64,000 nucleotides of DNA, taken from the NCBI GenBank assembly GCA_902516465.1, contig CABXZD010000001.1, forward strand, positions 186,001-250,000. Reading direction: 5' to 3'. Position numbers and translations under genes: made by a program. The notes under the pieces were generated by a model. The model was not told the origin of the DNA, made no database searches, and saw only the letters and a list, made by a program, of their open reading frames with translations. The DNA comes from an uncultured Pelagibacteraceae bacterium (lineage in GTDB: Bacteria; Pseudomonadota; Alphaproteobacteria; Pelagibacterales; Pelagibacteraceae). Each line of letters starts with the position of its first letter. Position 1 is the stretch's first letter. Positions 27,491 to 36,126 of this stretch are shown here, in pieces.

Positions 27491-28432
27491 TTATAAAGGT
27501 AAGAAACTAGTATCTACATTTCCTTTTGGTGTTCCCATACCATCTAAGAACCCCTTAAGATTTCCACTTTCCATAGACTGTTTAGTTTCTTCTGGTGAAA
27601 GAAATTTAAAACCACTTAAAGTTTCTTTCATATCAGCAACTTTCATTTCAGAAGCTTTTGACATAGCATTCATATCCGCTTTACCAGCTTTATATCTAGC
27701 ATTAGCTTCATGAGTTACTTCTATAAAAGTTCTAAGCATGCCAGGATTTTCTTTCATAAACTTTGTCGTTACTGAAGTAATATCTATACCTAAGATACCA
27801 GCATCTCTAGCTTCTTGAACTGTAAGTAACCTAGATCCAATAGCCGTTGCAGCTTTTATAGAATTACCACCAAATAAACATGCCATTACAACATCACCAC
27901 TGACTAATGCAGCAGCTCCTTCTTCAGGATCCATTTGAATAATATCCATTTTACCTCTATCTGCACCAACAACTTTCATACTTTCATCAAAAACATATTC
28001 TGCCATTGTTCCAAGTGGAACAGCAACTTTTTTACCCTCTAATTCAGTTGCATTTGCTTTTGTAATTCCAGAAGCATTAGAAGTAACACAAGTAGTTCCT
28101 CCCATTCCATACTCCATAGCAATATCAACTAATTTGATAGGCGCTTTTGATTTAACTGCATTAATGAAAGGCACTAATCCTTGAGAGTAAGAGATATCAA
28201 TATCCCCTGCTAACATTGCATCAGTCATTGCCCCACCATTTGTAAAGTTTGTCCATTTAACTGGCACACCAAGTGCTTTTGCAAAATTTTTCTTCTGCAT
28301 GTCCTCTAAATTTGGACTTGGCCATTCTAGAAAGTAAGCTACTCTAACTTCATTAGCTGCAGAATTAGCTACTGAAATACTTAAGTTTAGAGCTACAAAA
28401 CATCCTAAAAGAAAACTAATTATTTTTTTCAT
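27491..28432 (-). CDS. tauA: Taurine-type ABC transporter periplasmic binding protein
   Basis: 313 residues with a signal peptide (MKKIISFLLGCFVALNLSIS then ANSAANE). The mature protein shows the TauA/SsuA-like pattern: VRVAYFLEWPSPNLEDMQK, FTNGGAMTDAMLAGDIDISY, and LEGKKVAVPLGTMAEYVFD. It captures a sulfonate, probably taurine, in the periplasm for tauBC. It heads the minus-strand operon and faces the aminotransferase gene. AGAGG sits just before the ATG. Exact ligand is not proven. Confidence 0.85.
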   Translation of the reverse strand: MKKIISFLLGCFVALNLSISVANSAANEVRVAYFLEWPSPNLEDMQKKNFAKALGVPVKWTNFTNGGAMTDAMLAGDIDISYSQGLVPFINAVKSKAPIKLVDIAMEYGMGGTTCVTSNASGITKANATELEGKKVAVPLGTMAEYVFDESMKVVGADRGKMDIIQMDPEEGAAALVSGDVVMACLFGGNSIKAATAIGSRLLTVQEARDAGILGIDITSVTTKFMKENPGMLRTFIEVTHEANARYKAGKADMNAMSKASEMKVADMKETLSGFKFLSPEETKQSMESGNLKGFLDGMGTPKGNVDTSFLPL

Positions 28433-28565
28433 TTATTCCTCTTTGTTTAATTTAATTAAATTACATATATTTAAATTCAATTTTGAATAGAAGTAAAACA
28501 AATTATATCTCTAAGCAGTATTGCAAATATTTCAATTGTACAATTCAAAGTTGTAATGTATATAT

Positions 28566-28581
28566 TGTTCAAATTGAGTTT
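28566..28581 (-). promoter_or_regulatory. Candidate operator in the tauA / aminotransferase divergent promoter
   Basis: On the minus strand this reads AAACTCAATTTGAACA. It matches AAACTCAAAATGAACA at 35553-35568, upstream of the two-winged-helix regulator, in 14 of 16 positions. A related TTCAATTTTGAA lies at 28476-28487 in the same 213-bp gap (28433-28645), which otherwise holds only promoters. It may be the binding site of that regulator. Confidence 0.5.
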
Positions 28582-28645
28582 TGAGAAATTCCTAGTAAAC
28601 AATCAAATTTAGTCTATGAATTAAACTTGAAACTTTAATAAAATT

Positions 28646-29992
28646 ATGAGCTCAGAAAACAGAACAAATATTCCTAATTCTCTTAATGAACATTGGATGC
28701 CTTTTACATCTAATAAAGATTTCAAAAAAAGTCCTAGATTAATCACAGAGGCTAAAGGAGTTTATTTAAAAACACATCACGGTAAAACTCAAATTGACGC
28801 TAGCTCAGGTCTGTTTTGTAATCCACTTGGTCACGGTAGAAAAGAAATAACAGAAGCAGTGACAAAACAATTAGAAACTTTAGATTATGCTCAACCATTT
28901 CAACAAGGTTTTGGTGGGTCATTTGAATTAGCTACAAAAATTTCAAAACATACCCCAGGTGATTTAAATAAAATTTTTTATACTATTTGTGGATCAACTG
29001 CTGTTGAGACAGCTCTTAAAATTGCAATAGCTTATCATAGGTCAAAGGGAAAGGCCGAAAGATTTAGATTTGTTGGAAGAGAACGTGGTTATCATGGGAT
29101 GAACATTGGATGTATTTCGGTTGGTGGTATGATTAATAATGTTAAAACATTTGCCAGTGTTCTCATGCCAGGTGTTCAGCATATGAGACACACTCATTTA
29201 CCAGAACATAAATTTATTAGTGGACAACCTGATACAGGTGCAGATCGTGCAGATGATTTGGAAAGAATAGCAATGAATTTTGGACCAGAAAATATAGCAG
29301 CATGTATAGTCGAACCAATAGCTGGATCTACAGGGACATTAGTGCCACCAAAAGGTTATTTACAAAAATTAAGAGACACATGTGATAAACACGGAATACT
29401 TTTAATTTTTGATGAAGTGATTACTGGATGGGGAAGAACTGGATCTTCATTTGCAAGTATAGAATATGGCGTTACACCAGATATAATGACAATGGCTAAA
29501 GCTACAACAAACGGAGTTGTGCCAATGGGTGTGGTTGCATGTAAAGATGAAATATATGACTCAGTTATGGATGCATCTCCAATGGGATCAGTAGAATTGT
29601 TTCATGGATATACTTATTCAGGGATTCCAGTAGCTGTTGCAGCTGCATTAGCTGTACAAGATATTTTTGAAAAAGAGGATATTTTTAATAGAGCAAAAGA
29701 TTTATCGCCATACTTCCAAAAAGGTTTGTTTTCTCTTCAGGATTTAGAGTCTGTGGAAAATATTAGAGGATATGGAATGATGGGCGGTATAGATATGAAG
29801 TTAAATACTAAACCTGGAAAAGCTGGTTACGAATGTTTTAAAGCTTGTTATGAAGCGGGGGTAAACTTTAAAGCAACAGGTGATTGTTTAATCATTGCAC
29901 CACAATTTATATGTGAAAAAAAACATATTGATGAGATTATTGATAAATTAAGAACAGGTATCACTAATTATCAAAAGAACCAAAAAAACTAG
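28646..29992 (+). CDS. Class III omega-amino acid (taurine-like):pyruvate aminotransferase
   Basis: 448 residues, fold type I PLP enzyme. EHWMPFTSNKDFKKSPRLI is the start typical of beta-alanine/taurine:pyruvate aminotransferases; YHGMNIGCISVGGM, LLIFDEVITGWGRTG (PLP-binding Asp) and MAKATTNGVVPMG (Schiff-base lysine) are present. It should move the amino group of taurine or a related omega-amine to pyruvate, giving sulfoacetaldehyde and alanine. Alanine dehydrogenase follows 44 bp later to regenerate pyruvate. tauA lies opposite, sharing the promoter region. Confidence 0.85.
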   Translation: MSSENRTNIPNSLNEHWMPFTSNKDFKKSPRLITEAKGVYLKTHHGKTQIDASSGLFCNPLGHGRKEITEAVTKQLETLDYAQPFQQGFGGSFELATKISKHTPGDLNKIFYTICGSTAVETALKIAIAYHRSKGKAERFRFVGRERGYHGMNIGCISVGGMINNVKTFASVLMPGVQHMRHTHLPEHKFISGQPDTGADRADDLERIAMNFGPENIAACIVEPIAGSTGTLVPPKGYLQKLRDTCDKHGILLIFDEVITGWGRTGSSFASIEYGVTPDIMTMAKATTNGVVPMGVVACKDEIYDSVMDASPMGSVELFHGYTYSGIPVAVAAALAVQDIFEKEDIFNRAKDLSPYFQKGLFSLQDLESVENIRGYGMMGGIDMKLNTKPGKAGYECFKACYEAGVNFKATGDCLIIAPQFICEKKHIDEIIDKLRTGITNYQKNQKN

Positions 29993-31159: not shown

Positions 31160-33604
31160 ATGGAAAAAAAGTTACCAGCTAATGCGAAGGTTGTTGTAAT
31201 TGGAGGTGGAGTTGTTGGATGTTCATGCGCCTATCACTTAGCAAAATTTGGCTGGAAAGACGTAATATTAGTCGAGAGAGATAAGTTAACATCTGGAACT
31301 ACTTGGCATGCTGCAGGTTTAGTAAGTCAAATTGGGCCATCTGCACCTATTACCAAAATTAGAAAATATTCTTTGGATCTTTATAAAGAGCTCGAAAAAA
31401 AAGTAGACCATTCTGCTGGATTACGTCTAAACGGTGCAATGTCAATTGCACAGGAAGAGGGAAGATGGCAAGAGTTAAAAAGACAAGCGACAACAGCTCA
31501 ATTATATGATTTTGATGTAAAAATTTTGAATAAAGATCAAATTAAAGAAAAAGTTCCATTAATTAAAAATGACGATTTATTAGGTGGTATATTAATGCCT
31601 GGAGATGGATCTGGTGATCCATCTGGTATTACACATCTTCTTGCAAAAGCAGCTAGAGCAGAAGGTGCAAAAATTTATGAAGGCTCTCCAGTTGATAATA
31701 TACTAGTTAAAAATAAAAGAATAGAAGGTGTTATTGTCAAAGGCGAAAAAATAGAATGTGAATATATTGTTTTAGCGACAGGAATGTGGTCTAGACAAAT
31801 CGGTGAAAAAATTGGAGTAAGTATTCCTTTGTATCCTGCTGAACATTTTTATGTGATAACAGAACCGATACACAACTTGCCTAAAGATTTACCTGTTATA
31901 AGGGACTTTGACAGCAGGACATACTTCAAAGAAGATGCAGGCAAACTTCTACTAGGTATTTTTGAAGGAAAATCTATTCCTGCTTTTGATAAAACAAATA
32001 AAGTTCCAGAAGATTTTTCTTTTGGTGAATTTCCTGAAAACTTAGAACATTTTGAACCCTATCTAAATGCTTGTGTGAAAAGATTTCCAATTTTAGAAAA
32101 AGCTGGTATTAGAAAATTTTTTGCAGGCCCAGAGTCTTTTACTCCAGATACCAATACATTGTTGGGTGAGGTTCCTGAAGTAAAAAACTTTTTTGTCTGC
32201 TGTGGATTAAATAGTATCGGAATCGCAAGTGCTGGCGGTGTTGGTAAAGTAACTGCTGAGTGGATGATGAATGGTCATATAAATGAGGATATATTTAGTT
32301 ATGACATAAAAAGATTTCAAAACTTTCATTCAGAAATAGATTTCATTAAAGAAAGAGTTACAGAGACACTCGGTGATTTATATGGAATGCACTGGCCATT
32401 TAAACAACATAAGACTTCAAGAAATATCAAAACATTACCTCATCATGATAATTTAAAAAGTTTTGGTGCATGTTTTGGTGTTTCAGGTGGCTATGAAAGA
32501 CCTATGTGGTTTGCTTTAGACGGGGAAAGAGCAGAATATGTATATAGCTACAATTATCAAAGTTGGTATCCATCAGTAGAATATGAAACAAATAATACAA
32601 TCAAAAATGTTGGTTTATTTGACCTTACTCCTTTTTCAAAGTTTGAAATTAAGTCAGTTAAAGCACATCAAGAATTACAGAAAATTTGCACAGCAAACAT
32701 TAAAAATGAGCCTGGTAAATGTGTTTATACTCATATGCTAAATCCAGATGGAGGTATTGAAACTGATTTGACAGTAGTCTGTATTGATAAAAATTATTTT
32801 AGAATAATAAGCTCTGCAGCAACTAGAGAAAGGGACAAATTTCATATAAAAAAATATTTATCTAAAAATATAGAATTAAAAGATACAACAGATGATCTAT
32901 GTGTATTTGGTTTGTTTGGTCCAAAAAGCAGAGATTTAATTAAAACTTTAAGCAAAGATAATTTTGAAAATGATCAATTTAGATTTGGATTTGCAAAGTT
33001 TATTACAATTGATGGGGTTAAAATCTGGATTCAAAGATTATCTTATGTAGGTGAATTAGGCTACGAGCTATATGTAGATCTTAAAGACACAAAAAAAATA
33101 TACGAATTACTTATAGCAAAAGGTAAAGACTTTAATCTTTCTAATTGTGGAATGCATGCAATGGATATTATGCGAATGGAAAGTGGGTTTTTACACTGGG
33201 GACATGATATTTCTCCTGAAGAAAACCAGTATCAAGCAGGTTTAGCTTTTACTATTAGCAACAAAAAAGAAGTTGATTTTATAGGCAAACAAGCTCTTGA
33301 AAAAATTAAACAAGATAAAGCTAGAACTAGATTTTCAATGTTTACTTTAAAAGAAAGTGAACCAGGAAAACCATTATTACTCCATGATGAACCAATTTAT
33401 GACGATGAAAGAATTATAGGAAGATCTACATCAGGAAATTATTCATTTAATTTCAAAAAGAATTTAGTATTTGGATATATTAATAATGATTTTTCTAATG
33501 ACGAACTTCAAAATAAAAATTTATTTATTGAGGTAGAAAAAAAGAAATATCCTATAGAAATAATTAACCAACCTTTAAAACAAACAGATTTTAAAAATAA
33601 TTAA
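31160..33604 (+). CDS. Dimethylglycine/sarcosine dehydrogenase-like FAD protein
   Basis: 814 residues in three parts. DAO domain to about residue 365 with [21 protein letters not shown] and TTWHAAGLV, whose His is the covalent FAD site in this family. Then a linking FAO_M-like part, and a C-terminal aminomethyltransferase (GCV_T) domain from about residue 430 ([26 protein letters not shown]). Such enzymes remove N-methyl groups as formaldehyde or to tetrahydrofolate. It starts 4 bp after ald, so an N-methylated sulfonate such as N-methyltaurine is a possible substrate; dimethylglycine or sarcosine are equally possible. Confidence 0.85.
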
Positions 33605-34452
33605 ACTTTATTTTTTAGAAGAAAAACAAATATAAAACCGGTGATGTACATAATTAAAGCATATGCCGCAGTTGGAGTTATGTAGACTATATCTGTGCCA
33701 AATATTTGCGTAGAAACAAATATCGCTAAAGTGCCATTTTGTAATCCACATTCTAAAGCAATACATTTTTGTTGTTTTATTCCTGAAGCAAAAGTTTTAC
33801 CAAGGTAATAAGCTACAATCATCATTGTTATATTTAGAATTAAAGTAATAAAACCCGCTTGAATTAGAAAATCTATAAAACTTTCTTTTTCTTCATAGAA
33901 TGCAGCTATAAAAAAAACGACAAATAATACTATATTAAGTTTTTCAAATATCTGAATTTTTGAATTTACAAAATTTTCAGCAAATTTTCTTATGATCATT
34001 CCCAAGATAACTGGAACTGTTACAACTAAAAACATTTTTAGCGATATCTCTGCCATCGAAATATTTTGAGAGATATTTGTAATTCCAAATAAATCAGCAG
34101 ATGTAAAAATTATCAAAGGAACTGTAATAATAGAAATTAAACTGATTATAGCTGTTAAAGTAATAGATAAAGCGACATCTCCATTAGCAAATTTAGTTAA
34201 TATATTTGATGTAACTCCGCCCGGTGCAGCAGCAATAATCATAACTCCAATTGCTATTTCTGGCTTTGTTTTTAAAATTATAATTAATAAATAAGCAACC
34301 AATGGAAGAATAATTAATTGAGAAAGAAAACCTATAAAAAAATCTTTTGGTGTCTTTAATACTCTTGTAAAATCTTCAACTTTTAAACCTAAGCCCAAAC
34401 CTAGCATTATTAGGGCGAGAATAAGTGGTGCAATCTTTGTTACTATTTCCAT
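33601..34452 (-). CDS. BASS/SBF family sodium-dependent transporter
   Basis: 283 residues with about nine to ten helices. [19 protein letters not shown] is the family start, [21 protein letters not shown] the conserved core with the unwound helix, and [16 protein letters not shown] the ECGxQN sodium/substrate site. Members take up bile acids, pyruvate, pantothenate and other organic anions with sodium. Placed between the sulfonate block and the regulator, it may carry a sulfonate or carboxylate. It overlaps the dehydrogenase by 4 bp, convergent. Confidence 0.82.
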
Positions 34453-34513: not shown

Positions 34514-35533
34514 TTACGATATTGTCAAAAGATTAAGAACTTTTCTAATAAATTTAGCTTTATTTTTAAAAATTAACTTTTGATACGGAAGAACTCTTTG
34601 AACATTGAAACCTGTTAAAATATATTGTTTTTTTTCATTTAATTTTAAGTAATCATTTTTTATTAAAAACTTACATTTCCTAATAACTGTTGCTCTAGGT
34701 ATTCCGGTCATGTCAGAAACTGACATCGCACTTACGCCATTAGATACAGCTCGATTACCTTTTATTACTTCCTCATTAAATTTTGTGTAGTCACCCTTAA
34801 ATAATTCTTTTTGGTATTCTAAATAATTGTGAACATTATTTTGACTGTTCTGTTTTTCTAAAGTTGAACTATAATTAAAAGCTTGGTTCATACAAACTGT
34901 GCCCCAAACGTGAAATGTTGTTAAGTCTTCAAACATTTCGTGGTAGCCGATAATCATTGGAATTTGCATCCTGTAAAACCATCTCCAACATATAGAAAAA
35001 TTTTTCCTTAAAGCATTTTCAATTATTTTTGGTTCAAGTTTTTTGGAGTAAAGTTTTTCTTTATTAAGAATTTCTGAAATTTTAACAATATAACTGGATG
35101 TATATTTCATTTGGTTTTTAGGTTTAATAAAACTAAATGATCTACGATCAATTATAATTTGTTTTTTTTGTCTCTTAAGAACTCCCAACGCTTCAAGTTC
35201 TAAAACTTTTCTTCTGATAGTTTCCTTTGGTAACTGAAGTTTTTCACATAGTTCAGAAATACTGAATTTATCAATTTGAAGAAAATTTTTGGAATAAAAT
35301 TGATCATAACTTAGTTTAATATTCATTTGATCATAAAACTGTAAAGTTTTTTCAACCAATGAAATAATAATCAAATATTTATAATGATCTTTGAAGGCTC
35401 GATAAACTGCATTCATCCATCTCCATTGATGATTAATCCAATCTTTTCCTAATTGATCGTAATTAGCCATCATGTGATCATAGACTTGATCGTCATTTAC
35501 TACTTTTGAAAAATCTATCTGTCTAAGGTTCAT
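34514..35533 (-). CDS. Regulator with two winged helix-turn-helix units
   Basis: 339 residues containing an internal duplication. Unit 1: WRWMNAVYR near residue 37 and HTH SISELCEKLQLPKETIRRKV at about 91-110. Unit 2: WRWFYRM near residue 183 and SVSDMTGIPRATVIRKC at about 271-287. Both HTH units end in a beta-wing (KRQKKQIIID, KLNEKKQYIL). No ligand domain is recognised. It probably binds DNA as a pseudo-dimer. Its promoter and the tauA/aminotransferase promoter share a 16-bp element, so it may control the sulfonate genes. Family unknown to me. Confidence 0.65.
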   Translation of the reverse strand: MNLRQIDFSKVVNDDQVYDHMMANYDQLGKDWINHQWRWMNAVYRAFKDHYKYLIIISLVEKTLQFYDQMNIKLSYDQFYSKNFLQIDKFSISELCEKLQLPKETIRRKVLELEALGVLKRQKKQIIIDRRSFSFIKPKNQMKYTSSYIVKISEILNKEKLYSKKLEPKIIENALRKNFSICWRWFYRMQIPMIIGYHEMFEDLTTFHVWGTVCMNQAFNYSSTLEKQNSQNNVHNYLEYQKELFKGDYTKFNEEVIKGNRAVSNGVSAMSVSDMTGIPRATVIRKCKFLIKNDYLKLNEKKQYILTGFNVQRVLPYQKLIFKNKAKFIRKVLNLLTIS

Positions 35534-35552
35534 ATTTATAAAAGATTATTTG

Positions 35553-35597
35553 AAACTCAAAATGAACATGTGTCAACTATATATAGACCCATTTTGA
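35553..35597 (+). promoter_or_regulatory. Inverted-repeat operator candidate upstream of the regulator
   Basis: TCAAAATG (35557-35564) and CATTTTGA (35590-35597) form a perfect inverted repeat 25 bp apart in the regulator promoter. The left copy lies in AAACTCAAAATGAACA, which recurs (14/16) in the tauA promoter. Both copies are also followed by a GAAC, giving CAAAATGAAC and CATTTTGAAC. Autoregulation is a likely reading. Confidence 0.5.
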
Positions 35598-35646
35598 ACT
35601 TTATTATAATTGTTTATCTAAATAAAATATGTTTTAACATTTTTTT

Positions 35647-35877
35647 ATGGTTAGCAAAGGCTTTACAGATAGTCAAAATAGTATACAGACCGCTAATAAT
35701 GTGAGATTAGCTGAAAAGTCCTCTAAGGAAGACTCTGATGGAGTCGCTAGAGTAGATATCAATGTTCTAAAGTCTAAGCTACAAAAAACTCAGAACAAAG
35801 AGTTTAAAAAAAACTTAATCTTTATTTCTCTATTAATTTTGGGGATGATTTCTTTAGCCATTTTTTTATCTATATAA
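35647..35877 (+). CDS. Small single-pass membrane protein, paralogue of 35917-36126
   Basis: 76 residues: a polar N terminus, an amphipathic DINVLKSKLQKTQNKEFKKN segment, then one C-terminal helix (LIFISLLILGMISLAIFLSI). The arrangement matches the next gene, so they seem to be tandem duplicates. The charged segment ahead of the helix suggests an N-in, tail-anchored orientation. No family recognised. It is divergent from the regulator gene. Confidence 0.6.
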   Translation: MVSKGFTDSQNSIQTANNVRLAEKSSKEDSDGVARVDINVLKSKLQKTQNKEFKKNLIFISLLILGMISLAIFLSI

Positions 35878-35916: not shown

Positions 35917-36126
35917 ATGAAAAATAGTGGAATTAGCATAAAAGCAAAACTCATTTCAAAATATTTAAGTAAAGATCTCTCACAAAATCTTCATAGAAGT
36001 ACTAATATAAATGTTCTTTTGAATAGAGTTAAAAATAATCAAAAAAATGAAAAAAGAAAAAAATTATATTTTTCTTTTTCTGTTTCTGCTGGCTTAATAT
36101 TGTTTGCAATAGTAATCTTTAATTAA
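35917..36126 (+). CDS. Small single-pass membrane protein, paralogue of 35647-35877
   Basis: 69 residues with the same plan as its neighbour: NINVLLNRVKNNQKNEKRKK, then a C-terminal helix (LYFSFSVSAGLILFAIVIF). The shared core is INVL followed by a basic stretch and a helix ending in IF and one or two residues. It lies 90 bp before tRNA-Met. Function unknown. Confidence 0.58.
   Translation: MKNSGISIKAKLISKYLSKDLSQNLHRSTNINVLLNRVKNNQKNEKRKKLYFSFSVSAGLILFAIVIFN

Follow-up and report, generated by a model that had tools for sequence, protein, structure and literature searches.

Genes at the Locus

The window, that is, the whole 64,000-nt stretch of DNA analyzed here, comes from an assembly of an uncultured Pelagibacteraceae bacterium that comprises 1,043,497 bases and is 87% complete. 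Genes resembling hpsN, pta, slcD, tauC, tauB, and tauA lie on the minus strand; the names hpsN, tauB, and tauC were presumed from resemblance. Genes for a class-III aminotransferase, an alanine dehydrogenase, and a DAO/GcvT protein follow on the plus strand, and beyond them an SBF transporter gene and a regulator gene occupy the minus strand. The first of the tauABC-like genes (27491–28432, minus strand) encodes a TauA/SsuA-like substrate-binding protein that scored below the curated TauA and SsuA cut-offs. The class-III aminotransferase (omega-amino acid/taurine-type; 28646–29992, plus strand) was recognized by NCBIfam AptA above cut-off. The names "tau" and "taurine-type" rest on resemblance.

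The regulator gene (34514–35533, minus strand) encodes a protein of 339 aa. Downstream of it, after a gap of 61 bp, lies the gene for a transporter of the SBF/bile-acid:sodium symporter family (33601–34452, minus strand). On the other side, a gene for a small protein (35647–35877, plus strand) diverges from the regulator gene and shares its putative operator region, and a second small protein of the same kind is encoded at 35917–36126 (plus strand). Both possess a VDIN/NINVLL motif and a hydrophobic end, which in the first is a C-terminal stretch that looks, by eye, like one membrane span. No Pfam or NCBIfam family scored above cut-off for either of the two.

We fetched 71 stretches around regulators and tau genes from relatives and mapped their genes. 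An SBF homologue was present at most 600 bp from the regulator in 55 of the 62 fetched stretches with a regulator match; in the group L123–L130, the homologue is distant (28–33% identical). A VDIN-like small-protein gene adjoined the regulator in all 12 loci inspected. In L123, L129, L130, and L140, the regulator lies elsewhere, yet one or two copies of the motif described below directly precede the small gene, which makes this gene a likely target. As a separate observation, the SBF gene of some relatives (e.g., L131–L139) stands beside homologues of slcD, pta, and hpsN, a company that hints at a sulfonate-type substrate.

A Shared Element and a Putative Tandem Operator

A sequence-only reading of the window had proposed that two occurrences of a 16-bp element connect the tau genes with the regulator. 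We confirmed from the sequence that both lie at the positions claimed and agree in 14 of 16 bases. One (28566–28581; TGTTCAAATTGAGTTT on the plus strand, AAACTCAATTTGAACA on the minus strand) is situated between the ATG of tauA (28432, minus strand) and that of the class-III aminotransferase (28646, plus strand), 64 bp before the latter, as a single operator-like site (hereafter, the tau-side site). The other (35553–35568; TGTTCATTTTGAGTTT on the minus strand, AAACTCAAAATGAACA on the plus strand) is situated in the regulator promoter, 19 bp before the regulator ATG (35533, minus strand). The latter had been described as part of an inverted repeat, and this proved wrong: positions 35585–35600 (minus strand, AGTTCAAAATGGGTCT) hold a direct repeat of it, 32 bp upstream. 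The regulator promoter has TGTYCAWWWTGGGTY twice, at a distance of 32 bp, and we treat the two as putative proximal and distal operator copies. The palindromic core CAwwwTG gives them an inverted look; when the family is compared, the TGGGTY side points the same way in both.

Taken alone, the 14/16 match is weak. At most two mismatches are expected 0.2 times in window-like sequence, and at up to three mismatches, the window held eight matches to the element versus a mean of 4.74 after shuffling. A chance resemblance of two AT-rich 16-mers would accommodate this pairwise figure, as it would the 0.6 matches scoring at least 15 that the matrix introduced below yields by itself per 64 kb of Markov sequence, but it accounts for neither the conservation nor the tandem architecture, and we consider it extremely improbable.

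The pair was present in all 80 of the named SAR11 loci kept, at a spacing of exactly 32 bp, although 28–36 bp were permitted. These loci were the best 80 of 570 confirmed relatives and therefore represent one clade. Among the 63 regulator upstream regions obtained from the fetched stretches, 49 contained the pair (44 at 32 bp and five at 31 bp) and 14 did not; here, L121 has a weak third match between its two copies, and the L159 gene is cut by a contig end. Pairs spaced by 31–32 bp reached down to a protein identity of 28%.

A genome-wide search for the tandem pattern at fixed spacing covered 201 genomes of the genus. The pattern was present in 102, two of which had two sites and the remainder one each; a reversed-pattern control in the same search gave three matches. 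For 91 genomes common to this search and to the search for the regulator protein, the tandem site was found in 46 of the 66 with the regulator vs. one of the 25 without it, and in that sole exception, the site lies about 210 bp from the contig start. Because the genomes are related, the corresponding Fisher value (6e-9) should not be read as a true probability; in all conservation counts of this study, the rows are related genomes rather than independent events. The remaining 20 of the 66 regulator-bearing genomes lacked the pattern at up to three mismatches (this count was first made on 90 genomes, with G090 left out, and the comparison of regulator and tandem site was repeated with 91). Some of the 20 have copies 31 bp apart or elsewhere. 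The tandem site accompanying the regulator gene is the signature of a putative dedicated autoregulatory operator.

The position of the copies relative to promoter elements was compared across the 80-locus clade. A −35 box, TTGACA, is found at 35571–35576 (minus strand); it is exact in 78 of the 80 loci, and its offset from the proximal copy is identical in all 80. Among spacers of 14–20 bp, one of 17 bp gave the best mean match to TATAAT (3.75 of 6), and at this distance, the window has the −10 candidate TCAAAT (35548–35553, minus strand). With TTGACA at a fixed offset in every locus, the proximal copy would lie in the spacer between −35 and −10, and a site filling this spacer makes repression of the regulator by itself likely. 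This geometry was counted in the 80-locus clade; in more distant regulators, TTGAC is nearer to the distal copy.

The Regulator Protein

The regulator protein was detected in 67 of 150 genomes searched, including the window's own, and 66 of these genomes belong to the genus. Its closest named match (97% identical) is from the Pelagibacteraceae assembly AG-325-P21. Profiles, alignment, and a structural model all point to two winged-helix domains derived from an internal duplication. The first winged helix scored 21.3 bits with HTH_DeoR (cut-off 21) and 21.4 bits with HTH_IclR (cut-off 22); several other HTH models scored similarly, below their own cut-offs, and no clear family emerged. The second half of the chain is likewise a helical unit plus a winged helix, and the two halves were found to be homologous by hhalign (98.6% probability and E 6e-15, for a single comparison). 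When 60 relatives were aligned, 12 columns were invariant, and nine of these fall within or border the two predicted recognition helices (E104, R107, R108, and K109 in one; P279, R280, T282, R285, and K286 in the other).

The AlphaFold2 model of the regulator (pLDDT 84) consists of two units, each of helices plus a winged helix. Neither the Foldseek nor the VIA-align lists contained a whole-chain match to a solved structure, a result that falls short of proof of a new fold. Both programs matched parts of the chain to winged-helix proteins of the CRP, MarR, and IclR kinds, the best VIA-align match having a Z of 7.4 over 81 residues and an rmsd of 2.9.

Two irregular cases were noted among the homologues. 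In G392 (L360/L359), the regulator match has stops in its first part, reflecting either a decayed gene or an assembly fault. L154 and L155 have distant homologues (about 30%) without the operator, possibly a paralogous group, located directly after what appears by eye to be the end of a RodA/FtsW-type gene.

Motif Score and Conservation of the Tau-Side Site

For scoring, we derived a matrix from 44 distinct regulator-promoter sites; the window's own genome and tau promoters contributed no sites to it. The tau-side site scored 15.8 and the distal operator copy of the window 21.6. The degenerate motif WGTYCAWWWTGRGTYW, written after these sites had been seen, has three exact matches in the 1.04-Mb genome, compared to about 0.33 expected from base composition, and the three are the tau-side site and the two regulator-promoter copies; equal matches at random sites, which would have refuted the sequence-only proposal, did not appear. 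At up to two mismatches, the same genome held 213 matches vs. 182 for the reversed pattern, an excess so small that weaker sites are indistinguishable from chance. Applied to 1.2 Mb of fetched stretches, the matrix yielded 112 sites scoring at least 15, versus six with the reversed matrix. A reading of the list by eye placed nearly all of the 112 at promoters of the regulator, the small genes, or the tau genes; no other target gene stood out among them.

In an alignment of 53 tauA–aminotransferase intergenic rows, 10 scored at least 12 and 43 scored below 12. The 10 comprised the window's own row, L145, whose site has the same position, and a group of eight rows that carry TGTCTAAAATRGGTTC 112–116 bp before the gene, i.e., a second clade with another position. 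The view that the element is unconserved in the nearest relatives, taken from this first alignment, was dropped once relatives with the same promoter type were compared. A search with the aminotransferase protein covered 28 named relatives, 24 of which yielded a promoter. Five of these 24 keep the site at scores of 14.5–16.9, and all five have the long promoter type (five of seven long-type rows, the other two scoring 8.5 and 4.6). The site was absent from the 17 short-type relatives, which had been chosen for a close regulator homologue (best score 8.9).

When 399 genomes were searched at the DNA level for the window's promoter type, 97 matched; 30 loci were obtained, and the 29 besides the window's were used. 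Since the query contained the element, these rows favor it. After removal of nine duplicate rows, the same-type set was defined as rows with 212 bp or more through the end of the ATG, with L331 added by hand and L333 (−0.3) and L341 (16.1, at another position) dropped by hand. In 20 of the 23 distinct rows, the site scored at least 12 (21 of 25 with L333 and L341 restored), as against 0.6% of Markov rows. Its position, 63–68 bp before the aminotransferase gene, and its orientation are kept, with the proviso that the best site 60–72 bp before the gene was taken in each row, a choice that favors the site somewhat. The rows below 12, apart from L333, were L287 (8.5), L317 (4.6; identical in sequence to L293), and L331 (11.6). 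All 17 distinct variants other than the window's beat the mean of equally many random substitutions, and for 13 of the 17, fewer than 2.5% of random variants scored as well. Near-consensus sites occur in L319 (22.9) and L320 (20.3); that of L319 reads AGTCCAATTTGGGTTT, and the regulator promoter of its genome has the proximal copy TGTTCATTTTGAGTTT, like the window.

The tau-side site differs from the regulator-promoter pair in several respects. It stands alone, with a score lower than is usual for the regulator pair, and in the window sequence, it is not accompanied by TTGACA at the regulator-promoter offset. TGAGT or TAGGT replaces the TGGGT of the regulator motif in 19 of the 23 same-type rows, which leads us to expect weaker binding than at the tandem pair. 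As the site is close to the aminotransferase gene, we confine its putative effect to that gene and do not extend it to tauABC. The site was also seen without a regulator match in G165 (77% complete) and G434 (83% complete), and its other-position counterpart in G004 (96% complete), G044, and G047. Incomplete assemblies may be the reason; G004, however, is 96% complete. We also considered whether the regulator site and the tau site change together, with TGAG in both here and TAGG in both in G068, and rejected this, as it fails in other genomes.

Such a distribution bears on a more restricted explanation, in which autoregulation alone is real and the tau-side element has no function, being a relic or a resemblance confined to one lineage; the regulator would then control its own gene, the SBF gene, and the small membrane proteins. 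The tandem pair is indeed frequent beside the regulator (49/63 and 80/80), most tau promoters lack the tau-side site, which occurs singly, and in L118, L119, and L121, the regulator and the SBF gene occur without tau genes in the stretch. Against it, 20 of the 23 same-type rows keep the position and orientation, the substitutions mirror the variation that the motif itself allows, and L319 and L320 have near-consensus sites. On balance, we judge this explanation unlikely. The predicted tau-side operator is nonetheless not general: it is confined to one lineage and, at a different position, to a second clade.

Other Conserved Elements of the Tau Intergenic Region

Eleven bp from the tau-side site lies a palindrome, ACAATTCAAAGTTGT (28540–28554), which is the sole exact match to ACAAYTNNARRTTGT in the window's own genome. 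Its form CAA-N7-TTG was found in 52 of the 53 tau intergenic rows, and it probably serves a different factor of the tau divergon as its operator. A TAGTCTA box (28610–28616) before the aminotransferase gene was likewise present in 52 of 53 rows. We sought a promoter for the aminotransferase in this region and assigned none.

These elements raise the question of whether a different transcription factor, e.g., that of the CAA-N7-TTG palindrome, reads the 16-bp sites, with the regulator as a bystander. That binding by the regulator is something we infer from sequence leaves room for such a factor, and so does a second conserved element without a known reader at such a short distance. The tandem site, however, tracks the regulator gene across genomes (46/66 vs. 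1/25), and the factor of the palindrome in particular fits poorly, as 52 of the 53 tau rows contain the palindrome, whereas the element reaches 12 in 10 of the 53. We therefore hold a different reader to be very unlikely.

Proposed Mechanism

The explanation that we favor, and regard as probable, is that the element is the regulator's site, that the regulator represses its own gene via two direct repeats with the SBF transporter and the small protein under the same control, and that in this lineage the aminotransferase is controlled as well. Direct observation covers the sites with their spacing and conservation, as well as how rarely they occur elsewhere. From these, we infer that this protein binds the sites, that the effect on its own gene would be repression, and that the aminotransferase would respond.

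The regulator would bind each 15-bp site. At its own promoter, two molecules separated by three helical turns would occupy the same face of the DNA, with the −35/−10 spacer under one of them, and RNA polymerase would be excluded; a ligand would release the regulator from this promoter. Control would extend from the regulator to the SBF transporter downstream and to the small membrane protein encoded divergently. A third, single, and probably weaker site would place the aminotransferase under the same regulator in the lineage of this genome, where a single site might give a weaker or ligand-graded response. The regulon with autoregulation that the sequence-only reading had suggested is thereby supported at the level of sequence: the regulator-promoter pair and the tau-side site are kept in relatives and rare elsewhere, the latter in those of the same promoter type.

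Significance and Comparison with Known Systems

Members of SAR11 have been described as the most abundant heterotrophs of the oceans (PMC3160333). Strain HTCC1062 uses taurine for growth, and as of 2011, Ca. P. ubique was described as having no genetic system (PMC3090418), so that in-cell tests of its regulators were impossible at that time. Taurine-transport promoters were among the dominant ones mapped in situ to SAR11 HTCC7211 (PMC5069720), and control at this tau divergon would therefore matter. Among the open-licence PMC matches listed, titles and abstract beginnings mentioned neither a regulator nor an operator of SAR11 taurine genes. At the locus described here, a regulator has a precise predicted operator, whose tandem form occurs about once per genome, and a link to taurine transamination that depends on the lineage. 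The locus also provides a clear example of close relatives that differ by the gain or loss of a predicted operator. The shared site suggests that a local regulator helps control the use by SAR11 of taurine, a common marine nutrient.

We compared the regulator with several known types. The first winged helix scores near the cut-offs of the DeoR and IclR models, alongside several other HTH families; the regulator here has two winged helices per chain, and Pfam matches up to E 0.1 included no sensor domain of the DeoR (DeoRC) or IclR family. SarS-like proteins also have two winged-helix units in one chain, and SarS was the first Foldseek row for the regulator, but with an E of 0.2 and TM of 0.19/0.23, it is a lead only. 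A relation to plasmid Rep initiators, which combine two winged helices with direct-repeat iterons, was considered as well.

A parallel in architecture is TauR, a member of the MocR subfamily of GntR that controls the taurine genes of Rhodobacter and Sinorhizobium. MocR factors are described as often using direct repeats two or three helical turns apart and as often repressing themselves (PMC5320631), and the regulator here resembles them in its 32-bp direct repeats over its own promoter, where we predict repression. TauR itself is reported to act as an activator (PMC4254191). Its consensus is given as CTGGACYTAA (PMC5320631); the motif of our regulator differs from this, and by reading, CTGGAC is absent from both strands of 28433–28645. 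No Pfam row up to E 0.1 placed the GntR winged helix (PF00392) in the regulator, and the 339-aa chain gave no match to the fold-type-I aminotransferase-like domain that forms the MocR C-terminus. PF00392 had no match in the window's own genome (87% complete) either, and thus, a standard TauR was not detected there. Lacking both defining MocR domains, the regulator is not a TauR, and it would appear to work like one.

More tentatively, and with somewhat less than even confidence, we suggest that SAR11 swapped the MocR-type TauR for an unnamed family. Its members would be single-chain pseudodimers, built from a duplicated helical bundle plus winged helix; the two winged helices differ, and each would recognize one of the dissimilar halves of an asymmetric 15-bp site. 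The direct repeat would then be exactly three turns apart because the orientation of each bound monomer is fixed. A single, weaker copy of the site would have been recruited to taurine transamination in one lineage and, independently and elsewhere, in a second clade.
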